Origin: a bacterium
GTDB taxonomy: Bacteria > JAJRZV01
Assembly: GCA_024275095.1 (NCBI GenBank)
Contig: JAJRZV010000014.1
Coordinates: 1 to 19,511, forward strand
Direction of reading: 5' to 3'
Length of the DNA stretch: 19,511 nt
Below, in pieces: positions 2,535 to 19,511 of this stretch. The translations under genes were made by a program, and so were the position numbers. Below the pieces are notes generated by a model, which was given only the letters and a program-made list of their open reading frames with translations, ran no database searches and had not been told where the DNA came from. Position 1 is the stretch's first letter. Each line of letters opens with the position of its first letter.

Positions 2535-5384
2535 TCAATAACCCTGGTGTGGTAGCAATACCCCTCTTTCTGAAAAACGCGTCCATAAAGTGAGCGGGGA
2601 TGAAAAACCAATGCTCAGGTAAAACTTCACACCTTCAACATCTTTGAGAGGCTTCGCCACATGAAAAGAGAAAGTGAAAGGGAAATGATACGCCAGATAA
2701 AGGTCTACATTTATACCCCCACCCACCGAATGTATGAATTGAGGCTGAGGAAGAAAAGAAACGGCAGATTCGTAAAATGCGTCCAGGTAAAAAACACGGA
2801 AAAACAGAGGGAAGGTAGAAGCAATACCAGTGTCAGGAAAGTAAAAGGGATACAGTATAGAAAAAGCAGCAGAGGCCATGCGTGACCCGTTAATCCCTTC
2901 CGAATAGCTGTAGCCCCGCACAGTAAAGGTATCAGGGAAAAGCTCATCGGAACCTCCTGTATCAGACGTCTCAAAAGCCCTATCCCTATCCGGTCCCCAC
3001 GCCGCCCCGGCAAGCAGACGACCCTGGAGAAAAACATTGATTCCAGGAAGCTTAATCGCAGGTGCAAGCTCCCATGCTGTTGCAGAATAGGAAACATCGC
3101 TTCCCGTGTACCTGCCGAGAGTTTTGAAAAACAGTGATACCTTCATTCCTGACTGGGGGGCAATGGAGGTACGGAAAAATTTTCGACTGTCAAAAGTAAA
3201 GTTCACTCCAACAGAATTTCTCCATCCTCTTTGAATCATACCAGCGAGCTCCTCAGGAAAAGGAGAAAGGCTGCGGTGTTTCTTGAACAGATAGTAAAAA
3301 CGCCCCCCGGCAAACCACCTCTCGCGCAAATAGGGCACGCCGACAAGTACCCCTCCTTCCAGCCAGGACTGCCAGTATCTTCGAGCTTCACCATCAACTG
3401 TATAATCTACGCGCTCCGGTGGAACATGAGATAAAAACAACGCCACGGTCGGATAGAACCGATTGATACCAAAAAGCAACGAGAAAGGAAAAGTATTCCC
3501 ATCACGAGAATGCTGGTAGCCCACACTTATGTAGTAGAAATACCTGAGAAGTACATCCCAGTTGAATGTGCGTGCAGACACATAAGTTCCTGTTTTGGAA
3601 CTATACGCGTAGTATGGATACCAGAAAAGCGGACGCAGCGACTTGAAAGAACTGTATGCCTTGCCGGATATTCCGGGAGTAGAAAGGAAGGGGATAATCA
3701 CCTCACCCTTGGGAAATTCAATTTCCTTTTCTTCTTTCAGGTCCTGCCTGCAAATTTCGTAACCACGGGAGGTATAACAGGTATAAAAAACTTCGTTTTC
3801 AGCTGGGTCTATATCGAATTCATATATACCTGAATCGTCTCCACCCACAAGGTAATATTTTCCTTCTTCGGGTACGTACAGATAAAGGTAAAAACTTCCA
3901 TTTCTTGAAGAAGTAAAGTAAATCCCTTTTTGCGTCCATACCGGAAAACGGTTCATCCATCTGTCTCTTGTTACAAAAGATACAAGTTGTGTTCTTACGT
4001 CCAGCACACATATATCCTGTGGTTCATTTGGGATTTTGCATGTATAAGCAACAAGCTGGCCGTCCGGGGCAACCGACGGGTCAGTGAGTTCAACTCCTTC
4101 CACAGTGAAACTTGACTCCTTCTTTAACGAATCCCCATTTTTTGAAAAAAGGAAAATCTCCGTCCCGCGTGACGTTCTGCGAGTACCGACCATTATGTGG
4201 GAGGGGGGCAACCACACTGCTGTCTCTACCCCACTGCCCTTGGTCAGTCGTGTAACCCTGCTGGAGTCAAGGTTTAACTCGTAGATGTCATATCTGGTAT
4301 AAAACGTTTTCTTTCTCTCAATGGCAGTAAAAATAACAGAATTACTCCTATCACCAGCAGAAAGGCTCTGAACTTCGTAAGCATCCCACTTGGAGAGCAA
4401 CTTTCCCGTGTTGGCATCTATAAGATACAGCCCGGGATACTCCGAACCATTGTTGCCGTAAAAAAGAACCGCTCCATAAGATGCAAGTACTTTTACTTTC
4501 CCTTTGTAAAAGCCACTGCGCGTAATAACCGTACGCCACAAATGCGTTTCCGGGGGAGCGTTTTCTAATTCGTGGAACTGAAAGTCACGCCAGAGGTCGT
4601 CCAGGGTGTATCCCCAGATGTTGTAACCGATTATGTTCGCAAAAAAAGGTACGGTTCTGCTGTAGCGTTCAAAAAATTCGGAGACGGTCTTTTCTCCGTA
4701 TTTACTGCTCAAATAGTCAATAAACCGTGACCCGCTGAGATACTGGAAAAGACCGTCAGGCCATAAAGAAAGCTGGCCTGCACTTTTTGCGAGTGAAAAT
4801 CTTTCGCGTGCAAGCGTTCTTGTAAAGATAAGACTGAAGGGATGTTTAACGCGGCCGAAGCCGGTAAACTCGCTTTCATAATAAGTGGCGATACCCTCTA
4901 TAAGCAAATCCGGCATAAGGAAATTTGGAAAGTACAAACGGCCCAGAATGTACCTGGGCACCAAGGAAATACCGCGTACCTGGTCAAGGGTGAGAATATG
5001 AACGAGCTCGTGCACAAATACAGTTTCAAGCCAGGTGGAATAATAACCGATTGAATCGGAAGGAAATGGTGGACGGGTGTCTATGTAGATCACAGGTCGC
5101 GGGAAGACCGTCGCAATCCCGTTTGTGTCATCGTAATTTTCCAGGAGCACCACATGAATTTTCAGGGACGGTTCCCAGTTCAAACGCGACGATAACCTGG
5201 AAAGGATTTTCTCCGCATTTCCAACAAGCCAGGTGGCATCAGATTGGGTCTTATCATAGTAATGAATGTAAAAATGTTGAGTTTCAACAGTACGCCATTT
5301 CAATCCAGGAGGCAAAAAAGTCGCACTTAAAGAAAACAAACACACCAGTGCCGCGACAGCGGCGGTGGAAAAACCGTTCCTCAA
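2535..5384 (-). CDS. Secreted metallopeptidase / beta-propeller / outer-membrane beta-barrel protein
   Basis: The 949-residue product has three parts. After a signal peptide (residues 1 to about 24) comes a gluzincin-type peptidase domain with HELVH at 125-129 and a downstream LLIEGIATYYE (160-170), giving the zinc ligands H125, H129 and probably E163; this resembles the peptidase MA-like family. Residues about 300-560 form TolB/WD40-like (PD40) propeller blades, e.g. PSVAPDGQLVAY (436-447). From about 575 onward, amphipathic aromatic-rich strands look like a surface-antigen-type beta-barrel. The protein is therefore likely anchored in the outer membrane with the peptidase in the periplasm or at the surface. 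The frame opens with TTG (5382-5384) preceded by GAGAAG; no ATG precedes the signal peptide. The slipin gene ends 16 nt upstream. About 20 residues follow the last obvious strand, unusual for a barrel. A paralogue lies at 13409-16369. Confidence 0.85.
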   Translation of the reverse strand: MRNGFSTAAVAALVCLFSLSATFLPPGLKWRTVETQHFYIHYYDKTQSDATWLVGNAEKILSRLSSRLNWEPSLKIHVVLLENYDDTNGIATVFPRPVIYIDTRPPFPSDSIGYYSTWLETVFVHELVHILTLDQVRGISLVPRYILGRLYFPNFLMPDLLIEGIATYYESEFTGFGRVKHPFSLIFTRTLARERFSLAKSAGQLSLWPDGLFQYLSGSRFIDYLSSKYGEKTVSEFFERYSRTVPFFANIIGYNIWGYTLDDLWRDFQFHELENAPPETHLWRTVITRSGFYKGKVKVLASYGAVLFYGNNGSEYPGLYLIDANTGKLLSKWDAYEVQSLSAGDRSNSVIFTAIERKKTFYTRYDIYELNLDSSRVTRLTKGSGVETAVWLPPSHIMVGTRRTSRGTEIFLFSKNGDSLKKESSFTVEGVELTDPSVAPDGQLVAYTCKIPNEPQDICVLDVRTQLVSFVTRDRWMNRFPVWTQKGIYFTSSRNGSFYLYLYVPEEGKYYLVGGDDSGIYEFDIDPAENEVFYTCYTSRGYEICRQDLKEEKEIEFPKGEVIIPFLSTPGISGKAYSSFKSLRPLFWYPYYAYSSKTGTYVSARTFNWDVLLRYFYYISVGYQHSRDGNTFPFSLLFGINRFYPTVALFLSHVPPERVDYTVDGEARRYWQSWLEGGVLVGVPYLRERWFAGGRFYYLFKKHRSLSPFPEELAGMIQRGWRNSVGVNFTFDSRKFFRTSIAPQSGMKVSLFFKTLGRYTGSDVSYSATAWELAPAIKLPGINVFLQGRLLAGAAWGPDRDRAFETSDTGGSDELFPDTFTVRGYSYSEGINGSRMASAAFSILYPFYFPDTGIASTFPLFFRVFYLDAFYESAVSFLPQPQFIHSVGGGINVDLYLAYHFPFTFSFHVAKPLKDVEGVKFYLSIGFSSPLTLWTRFSERGVLLPHQGY

Positions 5385-5400: not shown

Positions 5401-6147
5401 CTACGGGCGTTTTTCAGTGAATGCTTTGAGCAATTCCAGGGGCACAGGAAGGATGGTCACAGAATTTTTCTCAGAAGCGATTTCAGCAACGGTTTGAAGG
5501 AACCTGAGCTGGATTGCAATAGGATTGCGTGAGATGATTTCCGATGCCTGTGCCAGTTTTTCCGATGCCTGGAATTCACCTTCGGCAGCAATAATTTTTG
5601 CCCTTCTCTCACGTTCTGCTTCTGCCTGCTTGGCCATTGCACGCTGCATTTCCTGTGGAAGGTCTATGTGCTTGACCTCCACGGCCGAGACCTTAATTCC
5701 CCAGGGGTCGGTGTGCTTATCCAGGATTGTCTGTATTGTGGCGTTAATTTTCTCCCGATGGGCAAGGAGCTCATCAAGCTCTGCTTCACCGCACACACTG
5801 CGCAGGGTTGTTTGTGCAAGTTGGGAAGTTGCAAACATAAAGTTTTCTACCTCAATAACACTTTTTACGGGGTCAACCACGCGAAAATACACAACAGCGT
5901 TGACCTTGATGGATACATTATCCTTTGTAATTACATCCTGCGGGGGCACATCCATTACGATCGTTCGCAGGGAAATTTTAACCATCTTATCAATGACAGG
6001 GATTACGTAAATAATTCCCGGTCCTTTCGCATCGATGACCCGTCCCAGCCGAAATATTACACCTCTTTCATATTCGTTAAGCACCCTGATACCTGAAAGA
6101 AGAAAAATCATAAAAAGAACAATAAAGCCAAGGGCGAATGTAGACAT
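5401..6147 (-). CDS. Slipin (stomatin/SPFH/band 7 family membrane protein)
   Basis: The 248-residue product has one N-terminal membrane helix (about residues 3-20) followed by a canonical SPFH/band 7 domain: [13 protein letters not shown] (24-36), GPGIIYVIP (42-50) and the [13 protein letters not shown] segment (66-78). A charged coiled-coil stretch rich in Ala/Glu/Arg follows (about 165-200, [19 protein letters not shown]). Slipins oligomerise on the inner membrane and are thought to scaffold or present substrates to the NfeD protease. The gene begins one nucleotide after the nfeD stop, and its ribosome site (GGGAGGTG) lies within the end of nfeD, so the two are translationally coupled. This nfeD-slipin pair is a well-known conserved operon. 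The ATG is well supported. Confidence 0.93.
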
Positions 6148-12364: not shown

Positions 12365-13419
12365 TCCTTGGAATCTCCTTGGGAATCCACACTCAAAGTT
12401 GTGCATGGATGGACAAACCTCAGAAGGGACGGGTAAAGATCCAGATGACTCTTTCCCATATCAATACAAACCGTTACTACGATGGAAACGGCGATCTTCA
12501 CCACTCCCCTTACATAAATTTTGCAGAAACCCGAATCACTCTGGGTGTTGAATGCAACATTACCGCATTCTTTTCCCTGTTTGCCAAAGTGCCTTTTGTG
12601 CAGAGGACTGGTAGCACGTACATACCGGTATACTTTGTCACGGACACAGGGGCAATCACCATGGACGAAATTAATCTCTCGGTGAGGGGGTCTGGACTTG
12701 GAGATGTAGAAGCAGGTGTCCACATTTACCTCGACAAATCAATCGCTGAATACCTGAAAGAAGGTCTCTTTATTCGTCCACATTTTTCTATCATCTACCC
12801 TACAGGCGACAGCACAGGAGAATACCCGCGTTCTCTCAATCCATTTCAGGATTCTGTAAAACTTCCCACAGGCACAGGACAGGCAGATTACAGGCTGGGA
12901 ATACTCGTGGGCTTCAAGTGGAAAATATTAAGGCTTGTTTTCGATTACACTTACACCATCCGTACAGCCACGAAGGACCTTACAAACTGGATTGCATACC
13001 TCCTCCCGGATAGCATCGACCCCGGCGACCGCATGGACTTCTTGCTCAAAGCTGACATATTCCTCCCGGAAGGCTTTATCGTGAATACAGGCATTCGACA
13101 TTCATTGCTTCAGGGATTTAATGTCAAAGGTACAGACCTTATCACCGGCCAATACCTGGACTACAACACAACTCATGCGGTGCTCACGTATGGATCCGCT
13201 GGCATCCGATACTCCCATAATTCGAAAATTTCATTTGGAATTACGTTTCACTTTCCAATTACTGGCAAAAATTATCCCGAGGCTTCAGCCTACGCAACTT
13301 CCAAAGACCCTTACAGGGTTAACGAAGGGGTACGGGACTTTGACGGGTTGTACCTCACGATGAGAGATCCTGTGCTTCCGGGGTTCTACACGGTAGCAGA
13401 TATTACGTATGAATATTAA
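12328..13419 (+). CDS. Outer-membrane beta-barrel protein, substrate unknown
   Basis: The 363-residue product has a signal peptide (about 1-26) and then long alternating hydrophobic/polar strands, with Gly and aromatic residues at strand ends, e.g. FAETRITLGVECNITAFFSL and DYRLGILVGFKWKILRLVFDY. It ends in ITYEY, an aromatic C-terminus typical of proteins handled by the Bam machinery. These features indicate an outer-membrane barrel of perhaps 10-14 strands, similar in general to transporter-type barrels, but I cannot assign a family. AAGGAG at 12314-12319 is well spaced from the ATG at 12328. The gene starts inside the lipoprotein gene (37-nt overlap) and its stop overlaps the next start by 11 nt, so lipoprotein, barrel and peptidase genes are likely translated as a unit. 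Confidence 0.82.
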   Translation: MGKINKLLPLSIILGISLGIHTQSCAWMDKPQKGRVKIQMTLSHINTNRYYDGNGDLHHSPYINFAETRITLGVECNITAFFSLFAKVPFVQRTGSTYIPVYFVTDTGAITMDEINLSVRGSGLGDVEAGVHIYLDKSIAEYLKEGLFIRPHFSIIYPTGDSTGEYPRSLNPFQDSVKLPTGTGQADYRLGILVGFKWKILRLVFDYTYTIRTATKDLTNWIAYLLPDSIDPGDRMDFLLKADIFLPEGFIVNTGIRHSLLQGFNVKGTDLITGQYLDYNTTHAVLTYGSAGIRYSHNSKISFGITFHFPITGKNYPEASAYATSKDPYRVNEGVRDFDGLYLTMRDPVLPGFYTVADITYEY

Positions 13420-14638
13420 CCGCCTCATAGGTGTTTCGATAGTCGCTCTTGTCTGCCCTTTTGTTGCAAGGGCGTTCAACGACACCGGCATACGATGGAT
13501 GTACACCGAAACAACCCACTTCAACATCGTGTATCATTCCGAATCAGCACACACAGCCTCTGAAGTCGCTTCCAAATGCGAAACATTTTATGCAAACATC
13601 GCCAGTTTCTTCGGCATAAAGCCGCCACCCTGGAAAATCACCATTGTGGTAAAAGGCAAAGACGACATTGCCAATGGGTTCGCACTCTATAATTACGACC
13701 TTATCCAGTTGTGGACGGTCAATCTGCATTATCCCATTCGTGACAAACATCGCTGGATAGACAACGTTCTTTATCACGAACTCACACACATCTTTCAGGA
13801 AAAGCTTTCCAGTGCCACAGATCCATCCTTTCCTGCCATTATCGTAAATGCCGGGCTGGCAATAACACGCACTCGTGCACTCAAAGATTTTTCTCTAATA
13901 GACCCGGTGTTTCAGGCTGGTGGAGTCATCATCTATCCCACAGCACAGGCTCCTTCATGGTTTGTTGAGGGTGTTGCCCAGTACGTAGCATCCCGTTTCG
14001 GAAATGAATCTTATGACTCCATTCGAGAAATGATTATGCGAACACTTGTGCTGGAAGAGAAATTTCCTCTGCCCGGGGAACTTCTCAACTTCAGGGGCAA
14101 ACGCGGAATTAAATCCGAAATTGTCTATAACGCGGGATTCAGTCTTTCACGCTACATCGCTGACAACTTTGGGAACGATGCTCTTGCTTCTATTGCTGTG
14201 AAAGCATCCGCATTTCCAGGTGCTTTCGAACAGGCTGTTAAGAAAACTTTGGGAATTTCATACCGCGAGCTTTACTCACGCTGGCGCTCCCATGTGGAAG
14301 AATATGTATACAGGGTCACAGCAAGTATTAAAAACCCGGATGTAGAAAAACCGTTCATCTCCAAAGACCGCGGGATTCAAATGCTACCGCGTATAACACA
14401 CAGCGGCCTGTATTACCTCAGTTACTCTCCTTCCCGCGGCAAATCGCGTATTATGCTACTCACTCGGGACGCAAAAACTCCTCGTGTGATCGTTTCAAAT
14501 GTAGGTGGCGGCTTTGACGTGGATGCATACGCCAACTTCATTGTGTACGTAAAAAGAAAACTGAACATGAAAAATCATATTGTAAAAAGTATTTATGTAA
14601 TGGATTTAACAACAGGTAAAACACATCCCCTGGTGTAA
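13409..14638 (+). CDS. N-terminal part of a secreted metallopeptidase/propeller/barrel protein, ended by an in-frame TAA
   Basis: The 409-residue product has a signal peptide (1-22) and a gluzincin peptidase domain with HELTH at 123-127 and SWFVEGVAQY at 183-192 (zinc ligands H123, H127, probably E187), then the first propeller blades. It aligns along its length with the protein at 2535-5384: both begin the mature chain with a Lys/Arg-Trp then an ETxHF motif and share spacing to HExxH and to EGxAxY. The TAA at 14636-14638 falls in a loop between propeller blades. Directly downstream, in the same frame, the propeller and barrel continue to 16369; joined, the protein would be 986 residues, close to the 949 of its paralogue. 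This half alone keeps the peptidase but lacks the membrane anchor. The ATG overlaps the barrel gene stop by 11 nt; its ribosome site is weak. Confidence 0.8.
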   Translation: MNINRLIGVSIVALVCPFVARAFNDTGIRWMYTETTHFNIVYHSESAHTASEVASKCETFYANIASFFGIKPPPWKITIVVKGKDDIANGFALYNYDLIQLWTVNLHYPIRDKHRWIDNVLYHELTHIFQEKLSSATDPSFPAIIVNAGLAITRTRALKDFSLIDPVFQAGGVIIYPTAQAPSWFVEGVAQYVASRFGNESYDSIREMIMRTLVLEEKFPLPGELLNFRGKRGIKSEIVYNAGFSLSRYIADNFGNDALASIAVKASAFPGAFEQAVKKTLGISYRELYSRWRSHVEEYVYRVTASIKNPDVEKPFISKDRGIQMLPRITHSGLYYLSYSPSRGKSRIMLLTRDAKTPRVIVSNVGGGFDVDAYANFIVYVKRKLNMKNHIVKSIYVMDLTTGKTHPLV

Positions 14639-14647
14639 AAAGAAGGA

Positions 14648-16369
14648 TTGGGAGAACCTGCTGTTTCTCCTGACGGAAAATACGTTGCAGCCGTAGCATG
14701 GGGTGACTCTTCAACCTGGTTGGAACTATACACCATGGATGGTGAATTCATCCGTCAGATCACCACATCTTATGGAATAGAAATCCACAACCCGACATTT
14801 TCTCCGGACGGAAAATTTATTGCTTTCGAAATATTCGATGGAGAGCAACTGGATATTGGATGGACCAGCATATCCGGCGGGCCCATCTCAGTGTTAAAAC
14901 TGACCCACAGTAACGAGCGCTTCCCTTCATTCATCAGTAACGACGCAATCTTCTTCTCATCAAACCAGAACAACATTTACAACATTTTCGCCGTTCAGAT
15001 AACCACACAAACTGTCTCTCAGCTAACCAACACGCTGAAAGGCAACATGACGGTCGACTATGATCCTGTTACGCATACTTTATATTACGGGTGTTTTACC
15101 TCCTCAGGCTTCAAACTGTGTCGGAGGAAATACCCAGTACTTACATTCCAGAACTCGGTGACAGATGTACGTATAACCGCTGCAAAGCTTTCCAAGTCCC
15201 AGATTCCCTTCTCACTCATCAGTAACGGTTTGCCCTACAAATTTATTCCATCAAGAGCAAACGTGTATCCGGTACTGAGTGCTATGGATTACCAGTTCGT
15301 GGCAGGAGCACAGTTCACCTTTTCCGATCAGCTTTTTAAACATAATTTTTCATTTGCGGGTTTTTTAGGAACACGCGGATTTCAGTGGTTAAGCTTTCTT
15401 TACGTAAACCGCCAGCTTCCTGTCAACATTTTCGCAACAGCAGACCGCCTTAAATATCTTTTGGAAGAGAGTTTTTCGGTCAGTGGACTGACTTTTTCAA
15501 ATATGCTCATAAGCGATAGAGTGGGAGTCGGTGTTACAGCAAATGCAGGTGAACATGTGGCAGGTTCAATATCTTACTTTTATAATCATGCGAAGCTCAT
15601 CTCACCACTTATGGAATTTTCCCTGATAAAAGCTTATTCCGCCACACCTTCGGGTGAAATATACGAGCTTCACTCGATCCCCTTGAACTTGACTTTCCGC
15701 TGGCGTCATCCGGTGAATCTCAAAATCTATTTTCGGGTATCCGGTCACTTCAACCGCAGCCTTTCTTACATGGACTATTATTACAACACAGGAGATTATT
15801 CATTTGTGAAAACGCGGCTTATAATTACAGGAACACACAAATTATACAAAGGGCTCAAACTCGGGTGGACACTGGCGGGTGGGCTAATCTCACGCAATGT
15901 AGATCCATTACACGAATTTTTCCTCGGGGGTTTTTATTATCCTCTCTTCTTCGGCTTCTACGGAGATGTATACATGCCCGGTTATCCTTATCTCTCAATA
16001 CATGGCGAATATCTGTACTTCAACAGGATTCTTATGCCATACACCAAAGGAGTACGAACGCGGGCGATACTGGGCAATCATCTCACATTTCACGGACTGT
16101 CCGTATACGGCTTTGTAGACGTTGGTAATGCATTCTCTCGAAAAAAGTGGTTCACGGAAGATGAATACACGCGGTGGAACGAGATTTGCACCGATGCAGG
16201 AGTCGGCATGAGATTAAAACTGAACATTTTCTACAACGTCCCTTTTGACCTTTTCGTCATGGTTGCATATCCTTTCAATAACATACCGGTAAAGAACGAA
16301 AATGGAGAAGTATACAAGACCAGAGGAAAGGTAAAAACGTACTTTCTTCTGGGCTGGTCGTCGTTGTAA
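14648..16369 (+). CDS. C-terminal propeller and surface-antigen-like barrel of the interrupted peptidase protein
   Basis: This 573-residue stretch continues the frame of the gene at 13409 after a TAA. It opens inside a PD40 blade (GEPAVSPDGKYVAAV, then NPTFSPDGKFIAFE), matches the paralogue at the propeller end (CFTSSGFKLCR here, CYTSRGYEICR there), and then forms an outer-membrane barrel with late strands such as GLSVYGFVDVGNAF and a YFLLGWSSL end. It has no signal peptide, so even if translation restarted (a TTG at 14648 has AGAAGGA directly adjacent, too close for a good ribosome site) the product could not reach the outer membrane by itself. I regard 13409-16369 as one gene with a single nonsense codon: a pseudogene, a sequencing error, or less likely a read-through gene. 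The following gene begins 26 nt later. Confidence 0.75.
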   Translation: MGEPAVSPDGKYVAAVAWGDSSTWLELYTMDGEFIRQITTSYGIEIHNPTFSPDGKFIAFEIFDGEQLDIGWTSISGGPISVLKLTHSNERFPSFISNDAIFFSSNQNNIYNIFAVQITTQTVSQLTNTLKGNMTVDYDPVTHTLYYGCFTSSGFKLCRRKYPVLTFQNSVTDVRITAAKLSKSQIPFSLISNGLPYKFIPSRANVYPVLSAMDYQFVAGAQFTFSDQLFKHNFSFAGFLGTRGFQWLSFLYVNRQLPVNIFATADRLKYLLEESFSVSGLTFSNMLISDRVGVGVTANAGEHVAGSISYFYNHAKLISPLMEFSLIKAYSATPSGEIYELHSIPLNLTFRWRHPVNLKIYFRVSGHFNRSLSYMDYYYNTGDYSFVKTRLIITGTHKLYKGLKLGWTLAGGLISRNVDPLHEFFLGGFYYPLFFGFYGDVYMPGYPYLSIHGEYLYFNRILMPYTKGVRTRAILGNHLTFHGLSVYGFVDVGNAFSRKKWFTEDEYTRWNEICTDAGVGMRLKLNIFYNVPFDLFVMVAYPFNNIPVKNENGEVYKTRGKVKTYFLLGWSSL

Positions 16370-17787: not shown

Positions 17788-19205
17788 CAGCGAAAATCAT
17801 TGGTCCATCTGGCGAACGTGAAGTAAAGATAACCTCGTTTCCGTGTACATTCGGGCGTTCAAGTACATGCGATGTAATTCTCCGTGACCCGGCGGTATCA
17901 AAAAAGCACTTCAGAATCTACCGAGAAGGTGGTCGTTTCTTTGTCGAGGATCTCGGGAGTTCCAACGGTACTCTAATTCACGGCAAACGAATTACACAAG
18001 TACCTTTACAGGATGGCACTCGTATTCGTGCTGGCAAAACTGAAATCATTGTTTCATATCGCAAAACAACCACCACTCACCGTGACGGAGAAATCACAAG
18101 GTTGTTCTCCTCATTTTTTCAGGTTGCCAAGCTACTGCTGGTAAATATAGAAGAGAAGTATGTGTTTAAAGCGGTTCTCGAAGACATGCTAACGCTATTC
18201 AATATAGACCGCATTGCACTCTATCTGGACCAGGAAGGAATTTTCCAGAAGGTGGCGGAACAAAGCATAGATGCAACCCTTGTCCACGGCTGCGAACCGC
18301 CTGTCGAGCTTATCAAAGAAGAAGCTTCACGAGGCGAGGGAATACAATGGTTAGATTCGGAGCAACTGCCTTTTGATGTGGTTTCAGCATGCGTGGTTCC
18401 TGTAAGCGAATCGCTGGATGTACTTGGTGCCTTTTATATGGACACATTCTCTGCGCCCTTGCGACTGGATGAACGTGAAGGCTTTCTACTCACAGGGATT
18501 GCCGGATTGCTTGGTGTGCACTTGAAAGCTCGCCATCTTGAAAACAAGCTGGAAGAAGAACGTATGTTTCGCGACAGTCTTTCGCGCTTTGTTCCCCCCG
18601 ATGCCCTGGAAACCATCATCGGTGACAGGGAAAAGTTGATGCAATTAACAAATCGTCTGGAGCGCCAAAACGTCACATCCATGTTCGTGGATATCGTGTC
18701 CTTCTCAAGCATGTCTGAACGCCTCTCCAGCGAAGAGACAGCATTTGTAGTCAACGAGTTTATGAGCCGTGTCACATCGTGTGTGTTTAACCATGGAGGA
18801 TCAGTAAACAAATACATCGGTGATGCTGTGTTTGCATTGTTCGGTACCCCCATCCCGAGAGGAGACGAGGAAAAAAGAGCCATTGCGTGTGCTCAGGAAA
18901 TTATCCATCAAATGGACCTCATTCGTGTCCCAGGACTCCAGGAAACACTTCAGGTGCGCATCGGCATCAATACCGGCCCGTGTGTAGTTGGATTCATCGG
19001 GCCTGCCCAGCGACTCGAATATACAGCCATAGGCGATGCTGTCAACGTAGCAGCACGACTGCAAACTCTCGCCAAACCCAACCAGATTCTCGTGGGAGAG
19101 GCTACCTACCGCATGGCCGGTGAGGCCTTCAAATTCAAACTTGTGGGACAGCTCAAGCTCAAGGGAAAAACCGAACCTGTCGGAGTATACGCTGTAATCG
19201 GTTAA
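17778..19205 (+). CDS. FHA-GAF class III adenylate cyclase
   Basis: The 475-residue cytosolic protein has three modules. An FHA domain (about 4-93) carries GRSS (26-29), SKKH (41-44) and SSNGT (61-65), the phosphothreonine-binding loops. A GAF-like sensor domain (about 115-250) follows. A class III cyclase domain (about 298-475) has the metal-binding Asp305 (FVDIVSFS) and Asp349 (KYIGDAVFALFG), Lys345 and Thr416 as adenine-selecting residues, and the transition-state pair Asn423 and Arg427. All catalytic positions are present, so it should make cAMP in response to a phosphoprotein and/or a small ligand. The ATG at 17778 lies inside the end of the upstream frame with a GAGG only 2 nt away, consistent with translational coupling. 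No kinase or cAMP receptor is visible in the window. Confidence 0.92.
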   Translation: MALTAKIIGPSGEREVKITSFPCTFGRSSTCDVILRDPAVSKKHFRIYREGGRFFVEDLGSSNGTLIHGKRITQVPLQDGTRIRAGKTEIIVSYRKTTTTHRDGEITRLFSSFFQVAKLLLVNIEEKYVFKAVLEDMLTLFNIDRIALYLDQEGIFQKVAEQSIDATLVHGCEPPVELIKEEASRGEGIQWLDSEQLPFDVVSACVVPVSESLDVLGAFYMDTFSAPLRLDEREGFLLTGIAGLLGVHLKARHLENKLEEERMFRDSLSRFVPPDALETIIGDREKLMQLTNRLERQNVTSMFVDIVSFSSMSERLSSEETAFVVNEFMSRVTSCVFNHGGSVNKYIGDAVFALFGTPIPRGDEEKRAIACAQEIIHQMDLIRVPGLQETLQVRIGINTGPCVVGFIGPAQRLEYTAIGDAVNVAARLQTLAKPNQILVGEATYRMAGEAFKFKLVGQLKLKGKTEPVGVYAVIG

Positions 19206-19246
19206 TCAAATATCCATAGTGTTTCTCCAATTGTGTCTCAAAATAT

Positions 19247-19511
19247 TTAATCATCATACAACCTCCCGGGCAAGAGAATGAAAAGTATCAGAAAATACAA
19301 ATTCAAAGCCCGGAAGTTTCCTCTTTGAGATTTTCTCACCCCATCCAGGAATATGAGGAAGAGGATTTTATCAGCATTTTCTTCATCAGGGAGGATTTCC
19401 ATCACCTTAAGCCTGCGTTTTACTTCTTCGAACAGTCTTTGGGGCTCATTAGTGGTGTAGATGAATCTCCTTATCTCAAGGGGAAATTCAAAAAATCTCA
19501 AAAGATCATCA
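19247..19511 (-). CDS. Mutator/IS256-type transposase, C-terminal part (runs off the window)
   Basis: The reverse-strand frame is open from the right edge to a TAA at 19247. It begins DDLLRFFEFPLEIRRFIYTT and has the strongly conserved C-terminal transposase block (FP.EIRR.IYTTN, then a Leu/Phe-rich helix with EVKRRLKV, then P-DEENADKILF). This matches Mutator/IS256-family enzymes, in which the last of the three catalytic acidic residues lies upstream of this region or at its start; the catalytic core is outside the window. The end (FRALNLYFLILFILLPGRLYDD) looks less family-like and may be degenerate. The element's end should lie between the stop and the cyclase gene (19206-19246), but its partner inverted repeat is not visible. 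Confidence 0.72.
   Translation of the reverse strand, partial: DDLLRFFEFPLEIRRFIYTTNEPQRLFEEVKRRLKVMEILPDEENADKILFLIFLDGVRKSQRGNFRALNLYFLILFILLPGRLYDD

Follow-up and report, generated by a model that had tools for sequence, protein, structure and literature searches.

An in-frame TAA interrupting a peptidase–propeller–barrel gene in a draft bacterial genome is probably a base-level error or unfixed variant

The window analyzed here, a stretch of 19,511 nucleotides that constitutes a whole contig (C99) of a 2.45-Mb genome assembled in 136 contigs, carries a gene that appears complete apart from one codon. Its 987-codon frame (positions 13409–16369, terminal stop TAA 16367–16369) contains a single internal stop, TAA 14636–14638, at codon 410, which raises the question of whether the stop is a property of the living cell or of the draft. 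A sequence-only reading had described the same frame with its sole TAA, which we confirmed on the sequence, and had left decay, a base error, and read-through as possible explanations. The 1.7 kb 3′ of the TAA contain no further stop or shift, and the 2 halves are the only long coding halves split by a stop within the window; same-frame pairs at positions 5495 and 6008 were considered and dismissed, being antisense to genes and not comparable split coding halves.

The 2 halves, both on the forward strand, together specify a 3-part protein, which was modeled with AlphaFold2 by entering the TAA as a placeholder residue. The N-terminal half (13409–14635; 409-residue open frame) begins with a hydrophobic, signal-like segment, followed by a predicted zinc peptidase domain (residues 30–305), for which the Peptidase_MA_2 and BSP matches are weak and under the Pfam cut-offs, and by the first part of a propeller. 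The domain carries an HExxH motif and a downstream glutamate: H123, E124, and H127 of the HELTH motif (residues 123–127; 13775–13789) are shared by each of the 41 other rows of our alignment (A3), as is Glu187 of WFVEG (13967–13969), the probable third zinc ligand by analogy with the gluzincin pattern. The TolB-like beta-propeller (residues 323–574; 14375–15130), supported by a PD40 match, the model, and TolB profile and fold matches, is the element interrupted by the stop, which falls in a loop between propeller strands 405–407 and 414–419; in the model, truncation after codon 409 would leave the propeller unclosed. The C-terminal half (14639–16369) comprises the remaining propeller and an Omp85/TamA-like outer-membrane barrel (residues 617–980; 15257–16348), recognized from modeled strands and from TamA matches at profile positions 836–947 (E about 2e-4 to 1e-3), which cover its final portion. 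That the protein is a peptidase and lies at the cell surface is thus suggested by profile and fold matches. Within the barrel, the motif M-[RK]-G-Y (15974–15985) reads MPGY, with proline at residue 857, a position occupied by R or K in each of the 41 other A3 rows.

Homologs of approximately 1,000 residues were found at 561 places in our species collection, the best 80 of which, mostly from FCB-group lineages, are all encoded by one uninterrupted frame, a property that the window gene lacks because of the TAA at codon 410. Independent homologs align across the stop (26% identity over 983 columns, E 1e-70), and many match the read-through protein end to end at about 25% identity. They do so without a gap at the stop column, in agreement with the earlier claim that no indel is needed, and because homologs have varied residues in this column, nothing special appears to be lost there. 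A distant intact paralog of the same architecture on the reverse strand of the window (2535–5384), which the sequence-only reading had aligned across the stop, indeed matches the window gene at 14531–15127, although the alignment is weak (20% identity, E 3e-10). No homolog with a stop at the codon-410 position was found, and among the full-length family matches listed in a search of 386 genomes, only the window gene has an internal stop. A first contig scan with the read-through protein returned no relative.

Could the halves be separate genes with their own starts? The first possible start of the C-terminal half, TTG 14648, adjoins an SD-like sequence, AAGAAGGA, as this reading would require, but the 2 elements touch, with zero spacing between them, and the next in-frame ATG (14735) lacks an SD-like sequence. 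No export signal was found on the C-terminal half, and a pattern search for a similar SD–TTG arrangement gave no match. The earlier statement that the downstream half has neither a signal peptide nor a good ribosome site therefore holds for both starts. Moreover, such a cut would be expected to open the modeled propeller, and none of the best 80 loci is split. Partial homologs in 3 genomes (G295, G198, and G188) were rejected as split genes, because all of them are truncated by contig ends. Taken together, 2 independent genes are scarcely credible.

The gene shows no sign of long decay, because conservation is similar in its 2 halves, as is codon usage. Divergence of the C-terminal half does not exceed that of the N-terminal half at 3 of 4 conservation thresholds, its ratio lies at the low end at the strictest threshold (61 columns), and codon usage is uniform along both halves. 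From the conservation of the C-terminal half and the uniform codon usage, the frame appears to have been under constraint until very recently or to be so still. Accordingly, neither the relaxed constraint nor the downstream lesions of an ordinary pseudogene were found, although a very recent loss would escape this test. Such a loss, through a real nonsense mutation or a strain polymorphism, would mean that the N-terminal half is made as a peptidase that lacks its anchor and has a disrupted propeller, whereas the C-terminal half would not be made. This scenario is compatible with a gene that is not obviously essential and has a paralog, with the lesion-free 1.7 kb downstream of the stop, as expected for a recent event, and with the proline at residue 857. 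Furthermore, natural in-frame stops are common but short-lived in bacteria, according to a 2021 study that required the same stop in at least 2 species, thereby limiting artifacts (PMC7918605).

What weighs against a recent loss is the company in which this stop is found. Screening 1.01 Mb of the same genome (41% of the total) revealed 13 other conserved genes with one in-frame stop each, so that, including the window, there are at least 14 such stops, namely, nine TAA, three TGA, and two TAG. We checked 20 read-through pieces from this screen with Pfam. In 10 genes, a single Pfam domain spans the stop: prfB, dnaE, sufB, and genes for a malic enzyme, a T2SSE (type II/IV secretion) ATPase, a methyltransferase, a Mutator transposase, a RhuM-like protein, an M50 peptidase, and the small subunit of a NiFe-hydrogenase. 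In accC, an enolase-superfamily gene, and rplC, the stop falls between 2 parts of one protein, the rplC assignment resting on Pfam for the downstream part and on inspection by eye for the upstream part. The single-copy rplC, encoding ribosomal protein L3, is cut by a TAA at L139 position 754 (contig C11), leaving an open frame of 121 residues compared with 186–345 in 57 other genomes; in addition, L3 reads GTT where 14 of the 15 other L3 sequences found have GM[TS]. In prfB, encoding RF2, the TAA lies inside the PCRF domain (L183:1723–1725; contig C21), downstream of a canonical +1 frameshift site, AGGGGGTATCTTTGAC (L183:1477–1495).

Cells cannot live without L3, RF2, and DnaE, and accC and sufB are likewise not losable, whereas all 5 of these genes carry the same lesion as the window gene. 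Hence, decay cannot explain this class of stops, and most of the stops in the draft are not real losses. Real pseudogenes usually carry frameshift-type lesions, which were hardly seen in the screen, and a recent loss of the window gene, although the leading alternative, is consequently unlikely. Two control genomes (659 kb, same screen) yielded at most one convincing interruption, in a HEAT-repeat gene. The automatic count of start-less splits was 1.58 per 100 kb in this genome (G000) versus 0.50 and 1.16 in the controls, a filter that separates them weakly, so that the contrast rests on the reading of candidates by eye combined with Pfam. Two further genes were observed in passing. A GAF-domain gene on the reverse strand of L208 (contig C32) apparently has 2 in-frame TAA codons, at 18806 and 18569, upstream of the GAF domain, and a carbamoyltransferase-like gene, NodU-type as judged by eye, at about position 15707 of L212 (contig C36) apparently lacks approximately 20 residues and changes frame, the only clear indel-type lesion that we noticed.

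Stops in essential genes, together with halves that both look constrained, would also be expected if ribosomes sometimes read through a genuine stop, making a soluble form of the peptidase alongside a full-length, anchored one. However, no suppressor or cognate stop-reading tRNA was found in the genome, with none of its 43 tRNAs having a stop-reading anticodon, and both release factors are present. TAA serves as the terminator of 259 of the 653 long frames, and tandem stops show no clear excess. All 3 stop codons are involved, in differing contexts; a context shared by the prfB and window stops, NTG TAA AAA, failed once more cases had been found. None of the homologs examined has a stop at the same place, and the predicted codon-409 product, with its open propeller, would make a doubtful soluble form. 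Read-through of this gene is thus very unlikely. A broader version, in which termination is generally leaky in this deep bacterial lineage, so that genuine in-frame stops are tolerated in many of its genes, rplC and prfB among them, is likewise very improbable. If it were true, the in-frame UAA in prfB would give the UAA-reading factor a second feedback loop, and the lineage, were its stops real, would stand out among bacteria for tolerating them.

The assembly itself offers a more ordinary source. Exact fixed-length end overlaps are the mark of short-read de Bruijn assembly, and exact 141-base overlaps are common to about 20 pairs of contig ends, from which we conclude that the draft is a short-read de Bruijn assembly. 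Four longer contig-end overlaps contain 11 substitutions and zero indels; a 401-base overlap (L197:1–401 versus L244:9803–10203) has 4 differences, one of them at the Thr of the HflX motif GGIGTRGPGE. Although these disagreements may represent real strain variation, the contig-end substitutions and the GTT of L3 suggest either faults of the substitution type or a mixture of strains. A uniform substitution model translates the approximately 14 nonsense changes into roughly 400 substitutions in the screened stretch, or 4.5e-4 per coding base. The same model predicts 39% TAA, whereas transitions alone predict 14%; with TAA accounting for 9 of the 14 stops observed, we discarded an origin through deamination-like changes alone. 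The right end of the window (19206–19511) is about 90% identical to other contig ends (L130, L198, and L245), and its L130 copy adjoins a Mutator-type transposase; a repeat probably ended the contig there.

Since many conserved and essential genes of this genome carry single in-frame stops and the control genomes hardly any, a base error is the best-supported explanation, and TAA 14636–14638 probably reflects either a wrong base in the draft or a variant that is not fixed; that this particular base is wrong is what we infer from the class to which it belongs. The error, confined to one base, or else the rare variant would have entered the consensus of the short-read metagenome assembly, whereas in the living cell the gene would be unbroken and would encode a surface protein, putatively an exported zinc peptidase mounted on a TolB-like propeller and anchored by an outer-membrane barrel. 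Among the 3 explanations initially offered for the stop, base error has thus gained from the stops in essential genes, and read-through has lost for want of a tRNA or a context to sustain it. More generally, this draft of a phylum with no other representative probably contains faults at the level of substitutions, and genes that look split, missing, or recoded in it should therefore not be taken for biology without reads.

Local assembly errors in uncurated draft metagenome genomes are known to yield incorrect protein-coding sequences (Chen et al. 2020, PMC7111523), and the window stop would resemble them in its corrupted coding sequence. The natural stops described in 2021 are similar in that each is a single in-frame stop in an otherwise conserved frame; unlike those, which recur in at least 2 species, the stops reported here come from one genome and hit essential genes (PMC7918605). 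TolB, for the propeller, and TamA, for the barrel, resemble the corresponding parts of the window protein by profile and structure, but neither has a peptidase domain or the 3-part architecture. The closest parallels are found in the family itself: homologs from KSB1, Calditrichota, Ignavibacteria, Latescibacterota, LCP-89, and Zixibacteria combine a peptidase, a PD40 propeller, and an Omp85-like barrel in a single frame, share the domain order and length of the window gene, and keep HExxH and the Glu. The window gene differs from these relatives by its one TAA and its P857, whereas the best 80 homologs are uninterrupted and all other A3 rows retain R or K at that position.
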